IMG/VR virus record: IMGVR_UViG_3300048780_000061
Span: 1 to 48,959 of that record
DNA length: 48,959 nucleotides
Source: a virus
Direction: 5' to 3' (one strand)
How positions within the stretch are numbered: the first letter of the stretch is position 1; every line of letters starts with the position of its first letter. The position numbers and the translations under genes were made by a program. The notes beneath the pieces were generated by a model, which was given only the letters and a program-made list of their open reading frames with translations, was not told the origin of the DNA and made no database searches. Positions 7,033 to 10,370 of the stretch are shown here, one piece after another.

Positions 7033-7356
7033 TCAAGTGGTTGCTACCGGAGTGCCGCAGGTCGGGCAATCCTCTTGGAAGAAAACATGGGTTGAACGTG
7101 CGGCTTCAAATGTTGAATCGGTTTCGCGGCAGAATTGGGGATTGTTATTAAGCTGGCGGCAGAGGAAGGTGTCAACGTCCTCAAGGGATTCACCAAGACT
7201 GGCACGTCGAAGGTTGTTTCCAATGCGAAAATCACTGACAGATTTTGCGACATCCTCGATTGACGGACGCTGTTTGAAGGAATGACGGATTTCATCAGTC
7301 TGCTCATAACGATAGCTTCCCGGCGGCGCGACATTGTAAGATTTCAGTATCCACAT
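7033..7356 (-). CDS. conserved-looking 107-aa phage protein, unknown role
   Basis: Starts 2 bases after the terminase stop and ends 4 bases before portal, so it belongs to the packaging operon. The centre (YEQTDEIRHSFKQRPSIED, then VSDFRIGNNLRRAS and a DVDTFLCRQLNNNP stretch) looks like a folded helical domain, and the C-terminus has CPTCG, a likely single metal knuckle. Position suggests a packaging or neck accessory protein. The longer alternative start at 7398 would run back into the terminase gene and is unlikely. Confidence 0.65.
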   Translation of the reverse strand: MWILKSYNVAPPGSYRYEQTDEIRHSFKQRPSIEDVAKSVSDFRIGNNLRRASLGESLEDVDTFLCRQLNNNPQFCRETDSTFEAARSTHVFFQEDCPTCGTPVATT

Positions 7357-7358
7357 GG

Positions 7359-10100
7359 TTAATGTTTTAATAGGCCCGCATTGATTGCAGCATCCCACTC
7401 TCTGACCTCGTTGTCAAAATAATCCTCGTCAGGTTTGCTGGATTGAACCTCGCGCCCGATTCGCTCAATCCTGAAACCGAGTCGGCGAGCGCCCTCAAGG
7501 GCGATTGCAAAATAATCGTAAAGGTCGGGACTTTTCTTTACCCGCTCCTTCATGTCGTCCTTAGATTCGACCTCGACCTTATTTCCGGCCACGATTCTGA
7601 AAAGCCGCAACTGGCCCTCTTGTGCAACTGGCATGGAAAGATTTCTGACCTGATTAGATTCAATGGCCTCGCGTGTGGAAAACCACATCTCTGTAACAAA
7701 TTTCGAGTAATGTTCCTTGCATGTTTTTAGGCGTCTCTCGCCATTTTTTTCATCAATGAACAAATCAAATCTGACGGGCCTCTCGGTGGTCGGCGCGCCG
7801 GAATCAACTGGTATTGGGCAGGTGCTTCCAAACTTCTTGGCGAATGAATTGCCAAGCGTTCCCCGGCCAAATGAATCGTAAAAGAAATTCTCAGGCGGGA
7901 TGTTGAGTCGTTTGTGTTGGTTAAAAATAAACTCAGCAATCTGATCTTCTGGCTCAATGCCGCAATTTAGTCGGATAGGAATTATTTCAGGAGTTCCAAC
8001 GGCAAAGATGATATTGCCGTCCTTGTCCTCTCCAAATTCGCACTCACCGCCAACGCAGCGGTCGCCTCCACCAAATGCTGGATCACAGGAGAAAAGTTTC
8101 GTCCGAGCCGTCCCTTTCCAAGCGGCGGATTCAAATGCGTGATGCTTCTCACACAGGCCAATGGTGATGACTCGGTTTGAAACCATGCCGCGAGACGGCT
8201 TCCCAATGGCTTGCTGGAAATACTGCCACGAATCAAGCCCATGAGTTGAAGCCATCAAGTCAATGAACTTTTGGGTTATGAGATAGGGGTAACGATTCTT
8301 CGGCTCATCGTTGTTTGGCGTATCGCGCCCGTCAAACGCAACGACATGGGCATCATACCAGCGCGAAGTCCATTCCTGAGTCTTGCCGGTGTCAATGAAC
8401 GAGTCCCAACCGCCCCTTGGTTCGGCAGCGGTGCAAAGCGGGTCTGAAATATCGGTCGGATTTCCGCCCATGACTCCCTTGAAACCATCGTTCACCATCC
8501 AATTTGCGTAGGCATCAAGAAACGAAGTCTCCATGACGGCGCAGTTATGGACTAAAAATCCATTTACGGAGTAGCTTGGATGTCCGGCAATCTCAAGATT
8601 ATAGACCTCAATTCCTCTGTCACAATCTGAGGCGTTTGTAAAACTCGACGGTTTGGATACCTCAACACTGTCCACCCAAGACGAATGAGAAAGTTCGCTT
8701 TCTTCACATCCTGTTCCTGCCGGGCAATCGCATTGTGTGAGGCTCCGTCCAATTCCACAGCTAGTTTTTTGTTCGGAAAAGCAACATCTACTTTGTAATG
8801 GGTTGGGTATCCGCTTCCAGCCCTCATTTTGGTTTTCACAGGAAAATTGTTTTCCGAATCGGGAAAAAATTCCAGCAAAACTAACTCCGCTTTTGTTGGG
8901 CCGGTTCCATTCCCACCACGAATTGGGGGTTTGTGTCCGGCCAGCTTCAACCTTATGCTGATAGCTGTATTGCGTTTCTTTTTTTGCTCCGCTGTTAGAG
9001 AATCGCAAAAGCTCTGGTAGCCTGCTTCCATTTTTGACCGCATTGCTTCGTAACGCTCTGGGTGATTCTTGAATAACAGACTCCGCGATTTCTGAATTTT
9101 TGCAGAGCGTTCTGGCGTATAAAGGTTCTTTCGATATTCCGGCTGTGCTGACCACCACTTCGCTCTGCAAGACCGACTGCAAAAAATCTTGTTTAATTTG
9201 GGGTTGGGATTTCCACAAAGTTTGCACTTTGTTTCCGGCGATGATTTGATTCGCTTCATGTTGTGTTATCATAACACAACTCTGGTTAAGGTCAATAGCC
9301 CTTTTCCAGCCGAATTGAGTTAAAAACGGATGTTTTTCGGTGCATAAAATTATTCGTCCATCTTTGGTTTTTATTCTGCAAAGACGCCTTGCCGTCCGTC
9401 TCATCGTGGAGACAACAGTAGAAATTCCGATTGCTGAACAAACCGCGTCTCCCGCACTAATTGATTCAATCGGGATTTTCCCGTTAGGAGTATCAACCAA
9501 AGTTCCGGCGGGAAAACATTCATCTCCATAATGCACCATTATTCCATCCATTTTTCCGGGAGTGTTCGGGGGTTTCGATCCTTGAAACTTTCCCATCCCG
9601 ACAAATCTGCCATTGGACACACAGGCAACCGTTCCGATTCCGTGGTCAAGGGTGCGGGCGACTTCATTTTCGTCGTCAATGTCGTCCGGGGTGATTTGCC
9701 GTTTTGAGTCCAGCACGAATCCATCCAGCCAAGGATACCTTTCACGACCACGATTGAACATTTTTTTCAATCGTCCCCATACTTTTCGTTCCAAAGAAAT
9801 AATGTCCGTCGTGGAAAGGATGGCCAGAGAAGTATGGGGAAATGCCCAGAAGTTAATCAGTGCGTGAACGGTGAAAATATACGTTTTGTTACTAGAGGCC
9901 GCCCCAAGGAAACAAATTACCTTGTTCTCGCATATTCTGGTCATGCCAAGAACAAACCACCGATGTTGGTCGTCCTCTGGCCAAATCAATTTGTGTGCGG
10001 CAAGATAATGTTTAACCACTCCCGGCTTTCCATACCCTCGCCGGATGGCGTCAAATTCTCTCGCCAGCGCGAATTCTTCCGCCGAGTATTGGTCTGACAC
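7359..10100 (-). CDS. terL: terminase large subunit containing an intein
   Basis: 913 residues before splicing; removing the intein leaves 588, a normal size. The ATPase domain has a Walker A variant GAASSNKT at about 66-73 (Asn where Gly is usual) and a Walker B ending in GDE at 192-194, exactly where the intein is inserted. After the intein come the METSFLDAYANW and GGNPTDISDPL segments. The RuvC-like nuclease domain shows LFSCDPAFGGGDRC and FFYDSFGRGTLGNSF acidic motifs. TerL cuts concatemers and drives DNA into the procapsid through the portal. Translation begins at a GTG; the divergent virion operon starts 51 bases away. The host exteins are intact, so activity depends on splicing. Confidence 0.92.
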   Translation of the reverse strand: MSDQYSAEEFALAREFDAIRRGYGKPGVVKHYLAAHKLIWPEDDQHRWFVLGMTRICENKVICFLGAASSNKTYIFTVHALINFWAFPHTSLAILSTTDIISLERKVWGRLKKMFNRGRERYPWLDGFVLDSKRQITPDDIDDENEVARTLDHGIGTVACVSNGRFVGMGKFQGSKPPNTPGKMDGIMVHYGDECFPAGTLVDTPNGKIPIESISAGDAVCSAIGISTVVSTMRRTARRLCRIKTKDGRIILCTEKHPFLTQFGWKRAIDLNQSCVMITQHEANQIIAGNKVQTLWKSQPQIKQDFLQSVLQSEVVVSTAGISKEPLYARTLCKNSEIAESVIQESPRALRSNAVKNGSRLPELLRFSNSGAKKETQYSYQHKVEAGRTQTPNSWWEWNRPNKSGVSFAGIFSRFGKQFSCENQNEGWKRIPNPLQSRCCFSEQKTSCGIGRSLTQCDCPAGTGCEESELSHSSWVDSVEVSKPSSFTNASDCDRGIEVYNLEIAGHPSYSVNGFLVHNCAVMETSFLDAYANWMVNDGFKGVMGGNPTDISDPLCTAAEPRGGWDSFIDTGKTQEWTSRWYDAHVVAFDGRDTPNNDEPKNRYPYLITQKFIDLMASTHGLDSWQYFQQAIGKPSRGMVSNRVITIGLCEKHHAFESAAWKGTARTKLFSCDPAFGGGDRCVGGECEFGEDKDGNIIFAVGTPEIIPIRLNCGIEPEDQIAEFIFNQHKRLNIPPENFFYDSFGRGTLGNSFAKKFGSTCPIPVDSGAPTTERPVRFDLFIDEKNGERRLKTCKEHYSKFVTEMWFSTREAIESNQVRNLSMPVAQEGQLRLFRIVAGNKVEVESKDDMKERVKKSPDLYDYFAIALEGARRLGFRIERIGREVQSSKPDEDYFDNEVREWDAAINAGLLKH
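8564..9259 (-). CDS. EDxHD/Vsr-like homing endonuclease nested out of frame in the intein
   Basis: 231 residues, lying entirely inside the intein DNA in a different minus-strand frame. N-terminal zinc finger with Cys12, Cys15, Cys27 and Cys31, then a basic helical linker (40-110). The C-terminal nuclease domain (about 118-215) shows Glu125, Asp158 in KVDVAF, AVELDG with Glu169 and Asp171, and His175 (ASHN), the layout of EDxHD/Vsr-like and DUF559-type PD-(D/E)XK enzymes. The order of conserved residues makes a chance shadow frame very unlikely. It would cut intein-free terminase alleles and so spread the intein. No Shine-Dalgarno sequence is visible; a palindrome abuts the ATG. Confidence 0.85.
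   Translation of the reverse strand: MKRIKSSPETKCKLCGNPNPKLNKIFCSRSCRAKWWSAQPEYRKNLYTPERSAKIQKSRSLLFKNHPERYEAMRSKMEAGYQSFCDSLTAEQKKKRNTAISIRLKLAGHKPPIRGGNGTGPTKAELVLLEFFPDSENNFPVKTKMRAGSGYPTHYKVDVAFPNKKLAVELDGASHNAIARQEQDVKKANFLIRLGWTVLRYPNRRVLQTPQIVTEELRSIILRLPDIQATP
9260..9280. repeat. perfect 10-bp palindrome at the nested endonuclease start
   Basis: GTTGTGTTAT and ATAACACAAC flank a single central base, and the palindrome ends directly against the ATG of the nested endonuclease gene. In the intein frame the same bases encode a Cys-to-Gln stretch near residues 275-281. As RNA it could form a hairpin that hides or exposes the start; as DNA it could be an operator. Confidence 0.7.
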
Positions 10101-10115
10101 GATGAAAATTTACCG

Positions 10116-10144
10116 TTGCAAAAATGGATGTCAAGTGGTATAGC
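10116..10144 (+). promoter_or_regulatory. candidate promoter for the plus-strand virion operon
   Basis: TTGCAA at 10116-10121, a 17-base spacer and TATAGC at 10139-10144, ending 7 bases before the ATG at 10152. It lies in the 51-base gap between the divergent terminase and virion operons. The transcript would be essentially leaderless. Confidence 0.4.
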
Positions 10145-10151
10145 AGATTGC

Positions 10152-10370
10152 ATGAGCGCAATTTCACTTGTTCCGGTATCGGAATTCAGTATTGGAAATC
10201 TGCCGGTCGCCGCCAATCCGCCCATGTCTTATGACGTGACTCTGGGAACGCCAACCGCCCAAGGTATTGTGCCGCCGTTCACGAATCTCGCGGCGTCCAT
10301 CTATGAAATTAACGGGGTCGGGCCGGCCTACGGGTGGAACGCCGCATTGGGAGCGTGGAAACAAATATGA
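10152..10370 (+). CDS. small virion-region protein
   Basis: 72 residues from the ATG at 10152; a TTG at 10116 would overlap the promoter. Pro/Asn/Val rich, with a C-terminal YGWNAALGAWKQI that resembles the ends of the 253-aa and 81-aa proteins downstream (SSNGVWTKH, VSNGVWIEEV), suggesting a shared beta-rich end module. Its TGA overlaps the ATG of the next gene. Probably a virion or appendage accessory protein; the role is not known. Confidence 0.6.
   Translation: MSAISLVPVSEFSIGNLPVAANPPMSYDVTLGTPTAQGIVPPFTNLAASIYEINGVGPAYGWNAALGAWKQI

Follow-up and report, generated by a model that had tools for sequence, protein, structure and literature searches.

The stretch of DNA analysed here (the window, 48,959 nucleotides) carries on its minus strand an open reading frame at 7359-10100 that remains open across 913 codons and is interrupted by an intein (8544..9518, minus strand). 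This is a class-1-type intein of 325 residues, running from Cys1 (9516-9518) to Asn325 (8544-8546), after which comes Cys+1. It splits the host gene at its Walker B motif in the arrangement GDE/C...HN/C, where a slash marks a junction. The N-extein (9519..10100, minus strand) ends in ...HYGDE, giving a left flank of ...VHYGDE/C, and the C-extein (7359..8543, minus strand), from a probable terminase large subunit, begins with Cys+1, so that the downstream junction reads ...NGFLVHN/CAVMETSF.

The initial annotation had placed blocks A, B and F/G and the His-Asn/Cys junction in the host frame, and all are indeed located there, block B as TEKH and block G as VYNLEIAGHPSYSVNGFLVHN/C. The class 1 residues C1, T60, H63, H324, N325 and Cys+1 are present, and C1, H63, H324 and N325 are invariant in 50 relatives. 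The NCBIfam N- and C-terminal intein models (TIGR01445 and TIGR01443) exceed their cut-offs in the window; the Pfam model Intein_splicing falls just under its cut-off here and exceeds it at three related loci (L012, L022 and L025). The fold is of the HINT type: the top Foldseek matches to the intein model are inteins, the best in the PDB being the gp41-1 intein (6qaz, E 1e-6). AlphaFold gives confident splicing halves (residues 1-120 and 281-325, pLDDT about 95) with an unfolded linker between them. The N-terminal splicing region, with blocks A and B (residues 1-85; 9264..9518, minus strand), is modelled at a pLDDT of about 95-98 and matches its own profile at E 1e-33; the C-terminal region, with blocks F and G (residues 281-325; 8544..8678, minus strand), is modelled at about 92-97 except for residues 291-300. 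The linker (residues 126-280; 8679..9143, minus strand) is predicted to be disordered, mostly at pLDDT 40-58.

No endonuclease domain was matched in the intein frame of the window, as the initial annotation had said, and the idea of an in-frame endonuclease within the linker was dropped; the nuclease sits at +1 instead. Its gene (8564..9259, minus strand; ATG at 9257-9259) lies wholly within the intein DNA and encodes 231 residues with a zinc finger and a DUF559/EDxHD domain. The distance from the host start, 10100-9259 = 841, is 1 modulo 3, which places the gene one base off the host and intein frame. It starts 259 nt after Cys1, just past block B; at the other end, 20 nt remain between its stop codon and the intein end, so the nuclease C-terminus shares DNA with splicing blocks F and G; most of the C-terminal splicing region is thus nuclease coding sequence as well. 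The overlap proposed earlier for the central linker stands, but it is not confined to the linker. The predicted disorder fits a linker that is in effect the nuclease gene read out of phase, which was also the earlier suggestion.

The reading of this second frame as a zinc-finger and EDxHD nuclease is borne out by a Pfam DUF559 (PF04480) match above cut-off (E 9e-12) and by homologues. Across 57 relatives the zinc finger C12-x2-C15 ... C27-x3-C31 (9167..9226, minus strand) is invariant or nearly so, and the four residues of the putative active site E169-x-D171-G-x-S-H175 ... D184 (8708..8755, minus strand), which aligns with that of 3hrl, are invariant. By sequence the catalytic domain matches the DUF559-like structure 3hrl at E 2e-12. 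The AlphaFold model of the nuclease has a mean pLDDT of 90.6, and Foldseek pairs it with 3hrl and with 3r3p (I-Bth0305I, an EDxHD homing endonuclease) at probability 1.00 and E about 0.007; one match with a better E-value is a mitoribosomal protein. Sequence and model together meet the description of an EDxHD active site on a PD-(D/E)xK-like core. A role in anti-phage defence was set aside, PADLOC having returned no match of note. An identical nuclease copy is found in two separately assembled contigs (L007 and L010). The latter (PLNY01000004.1) is binned in the MAG Anaerolineae bacterium fen_1070 and is probably a phage contig or prophage.

That the intein interrupts a host gene was correctly recognised at the outset, and the identity given to that gene, terminase, rests on weak matches. 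Intein-free homologues of the host gene match no Pfam or PHROG family, and we accordingly do not present it as a Pfam/PHROG terminase. Among the matches listed, all weak phage matches with a functional annotation are terminases, and in the PDB there is a weak match to a large terminase (E 0.05). The host gene is probably a terminase large subunit.

The nested arrangement recurs widely. In phages, tblastn gave 44 records matching the nuclease, and in the six inspected the match falls at +1 within a CDS (a helicase or an unnamed one) that is given as uninterrupted; none of the phage records examined is annotated with the nested nuclease. Homing nucleases of this kind are missed because gene callers retain only the longer frame. 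Profile scans of IMG/VR yielded 331 nuclease relatives, and a second seed gave 273; of the loci from these scans, 85/86 and 52/56 have the nuclease at +1 within an open host ORF, and none has it in frame or at +2. A scan with the splicing domain only, where the query held no nuclease, found a nuclease at +1 in 55 of 75 loci, with none in frame and none at +2. In total, 152 distinct nuclease genes were collected (about 101 clusters at 70% identity). An open host ORF surrounds 146 of them, always at an offset of +1; the remaining six are free-standing genes. In nearly every case the insertion sits immediately behind the Walker B 'DE' of an SF2/SNF2-type helicase or terminase-like protein, and none of the loci examined has its host gene split by the nuclease. 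Cultured phages with this architecture include Pseudomonas phage MR14 and Corynebacterium phage phi673. A count of 'broken' nucleases taken from profile envelopes was discarded because envelopes may overrun natural starts and stops. As judged from these sequences, the +1-nested nuclease inteins are a large and old family with a fixed phase, whose usual site is the Walker B motif of a helicase or terminase.

Both frames have been preserved. As a null, synonymous codons were shuffled within each of 65 non-redundant nucleases. The shuffles predict 6.8 host-frame stops per gene, and about 13.5 for the gene in the window; the observed number is zero in 63 of the 65. One exception (L045) has a single apparent stop from a match overrunning the nuclease end, and the other is a free-standing nuclease (L013) with six host-phase stops against 7.5 expected. 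The third frame has stops at the expected level. Homologues down to about 30% identity hold both frames open in the same phase, and for this reason, together with the codon shuffles, a chance open frame is excluded. Between the window and a related locus, L008, changes fall 44/44/118 at nuclease codon positions 1/2/3, and identity is 72% for the nuclease against 41% for the intein frame over the same DNA. The nuclease frame is under purifying selection, with substitutions concentrated at its wobble base. Distances among the nucleases correlate with those among the splicing domains (rho 0.34, 0/2000 permutations), which fits joint inheritance. In short, the earlier proposal of two proteins in overlapping frames agrees with these data: the codon-position comparison shows the nuclease frame to be conserved, the intein frame is kept open, homologues exist, and frequent stops in the nuclease frame are not what the relatives show. 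Elsewhere in the window, long open frames on opposite strands are paired at 23445-24623/23646-24314 and 37848-39062/37857-39059, with probably one coding frame per pair.

The splicing-domain scan also caught inteins at sites other than Walker B, in which an HNH_3 nuclease is hidden at +2 (Pfam E 1e-8 to 4e-18), again together with a zinc finger. This second class was seen at L268, L274, L234, L242, L273, L285 and L293-L372. When HNH proteins were used as the query, 52 of 76 classified loci had the nuclease in an intein ORF at +2 with zero host-frame stops, and the remaining 24 were free-standing, with 1-14 stops in that phase. Two further inteins (L261 and L269) are LAGLIDADG-like in frame, by motifs recognised by eye, and have no alternative frame longer than 67 residues.

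Comparison of host genes with and without the intein was possible through three intein-free alleles of the window's gene (L090-L092). They are empty at the same point, GDE/A, their site reading GDE/AAVMESSF, and are 99% identical to the C-extein. Relative to the insertion, they match the window exactly over 200 bp on the upstream side (-700 to -500) and over 900 bp on the downstream side (+200 to +1100), and in the roughly 700 bp between (-500 to +200) they diverge by up to 22% per 100 bp. This diverged tract between identical stretches would fit recent homing with co-conversion from a diverged donor; mosaicism between the two phage types is seen at other places as well, meaning that such a tract is not unique to the insertion.

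Four of the six free-standing nucleases sit immediately upstream of a terminase or helicase gene that has no intein (L013:2992-5452, L151:2977-5266, L160:2998-5266 and L170:2968-3952), as if parked next to their target. In all four the host-phase frame is stop-rich, and at L170 the helicase reading is itself broken at that point. A further free-standing copy sits amid replication genes (L154). In the tree, the free-standing copies are scattered among nested ones. Decay is also seen. At L164 the nuclease frame is disrupted and the intein is intact, three loci (L237, L256 and L266) have mini-inteins of 142-146 residues in which the C-terminal tail of the nuclease can still be read at +1, and a shortened intein (L239) keeps a partial nuclease core. 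The shortened inteins show later loss of the nuclease with retention of the splicing frame. The helicase ORF at L164:1614-4511 has an apparent second short intein besides the nested one, the two in order reading CFVGDTLILT...VHNSG and CFIGSTKV...VHNCHH, and the next ORF also starts with an intein-like block.

Possible expression signals of the nuclease differ between parts of the family. Shine-Dalgarno-like sites precede 18 of 55 nuclease ATGs against 9.8% of control ATGs (p 4e-6), an example being GACGAGGTTTTAATTTATG in CP-T1. The nuclease ATG of the window has no Shine-Dalgarno sequence, nor do those of the terminase group, and with its presence in a third only we rejected it as a universal signal. 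Upstream of the window's ATG is a candidate sigma70-like promoter, TTGACC-16-TATGAT with TG before the -10 (9268..9295, minus strand), identified by consensus match only. In the window and at L008, L012, L014 and L015, 8 nt separate the end of the -10 from the nuclease ATG, a conservation that may partly reflect intein amino-acid constraints and shared ancestry. Promoter-like sites scoring at least 9 occur in 10/61 against 1%; within the window, promoter-like matches are not enriched over the region as a whole. Such a promoter would possibly yield a nearly leaderless nuclease mRNA in the terminase group. Directly 5' of the ATG, and overlapping the promoter-like -10, is a near-perfect 21-bp dyad, GTTGTGTTATCATAACACAAC (9260..9280), of which shuffled sequences give an expectation of none by chance. 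L008 keeps just its inner part, and the dyad was dropped as a conserved operator.

Taken together, we consider it very probable that the window carries a mobile intein with a homing endonuclease encoded by a gene of its own, which is nested at +1 and independently initiated; splicing, expression, cutting and homing are the activities we infer for this element. The host frame would be translated straight through, and the intein would excise by ordinary Cys1/Asn/Cys+1 splicing to restore the terminase, with the frame-shifted linker serving as an inert, disordered loop at the usual point of endonuclease insertion. The nuclease would be made from its own ATG, aided by Shine-Dalgarno-like sites in part of the family and possibly by the internal promoter in the terminase group. 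It would presumably cut intein-free alleles at the Walker B sequence, and repair of the cut allele would copy in the intein with its flanks.

An improbable alternative is programmed ribosomal frameshifting from the host frame, which would give a fusion of N-extein, N-intein and nuclease with no separate protein. The constant +1 phase is what recoding would need, but common descent and the shared terminal blocks explain it equally well. In the window an in-phase stop closes the nuclease frame two codons ahead of the ATG, and 18/63 relatives have such a stop 0-3 codons ahead of theirs, which argues against frameshifting in those cases; a start codon before the zinc finger, with the Shine-Dalgarno-like or promoter-like sites of part of the family, points the same way. 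On this sequence evidence independent initiation is favoured over frameshifting.

Slightly less probable again is that the nuclease is a dead passenger of a splicing-only intein, its frame now decaying. Such decay is seen in the disrupted and shortened relatives described above, but the window and its relatives have an intact ORF with invariant active-site residues and mostly silent changes, and the gene recurs as the identical copy on separate contigs and as a 71%-identical one at L008. It is scarcely credible that the second ORF arose by chance or through misassembly, or that the insert is a group I intron. The window does have long alternative frames elsewhere; against this stand DUF559 homology in one frame and intein homology in the other, the open-frame null, the independent contigs and a host frame that is open throughout, and the intron reading was ruled out by the absence of any Rfam match at E<=1 in 7300-10300.

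We lean towards the view that frame-nested inteins are a general and overlooked class of mobile inteins in phages, in which DUF559/EDxHD (+1) and HNH (+2) nucleases independently took up an out-of-frame position at one and the same point in the splicing domain. This state would be stable over long evolution, would interconvert with free-standing homing genes and mini-inteins, and would be a plausible step on the way to fractured genes and split inteins such as gp41-1. Inteins are usually described with the homing endonuclease as a fused domain; here it appears as a separate, frame-sharing gene, a state seen in two unrelated nuclease families at least and across well above one hundred phage contigs. 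These loci offer a large natural set of long, old, same-strand overlaps where function constrains one frame and the other mainly has to remain open. They make testable how an endonuclease enters an intein without fusion, and supply a candidate for an intermediate from which fractured genes and split inteins might have arisen.

In conventional mobile inteins, a LAGLIDADG or HNH endonuclease is a domain of the intein polypeptide. The window's intein has in common with these the class 1 splicing residues, an endonuclease between blocks B and F, and empty alleles, but its endonuclease lies outside the intein polypeptide and in another frame. The fractured genes of Dassa et al. (2009) reportedly consist of split inteins with a separate Vsr-like endonuclease gene between the halves, the host gene being broken. 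Phage DNA genes and a separate EDxHD/Vsr-like endonuclease gene at the same point are shared features, and the closest fold to the window's intein, gp41-1, is of this kind; unlike the intein of a fractured gene, the window's intein is in one piece and shares its DNA with a nuclease read in a different frame. I-Bth0305I is the EDxHD homing endonuclease of a group I intron (PMC3943268, 3r3p). It shares with the window's nuclease its catalytic fold and motif, and a DNA-binding part outside the nuclease domain, but it is encoded in an RNA-splicing intron and thus needs no second open frame. An intein at the terminase Walker B motif is known from mycobacteriophages (TerL1-e, PMC5050341).

In the open-access PMC literature we came across no description of a contiguous intein whose endonuclease is read in a different frame; papers elsewhere could exist. 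The closest precedent found is the ShiLan element, an insert in a phage DNA methylase with an HNH endonuclease out of frame (PMC11855218). Like the window's intein, this mobile insert keeps the host frame open and has its nuclease in another, and internal initiation was proposed for its nuclease as it is here. Its authors found no intein splicing domain and thought that the insert is retained in the protein (PMC11855218), whereas in the window a splicing domain is recognisable in the host frame, and the nuclease belongs to the DUF559/EDxHD type instead of HNH. The GTG at nt 18 of ShiLan would imply an offset of +2, and the +2 HNH inteins are nearer to ShiLan than the DUF559 inteins are.
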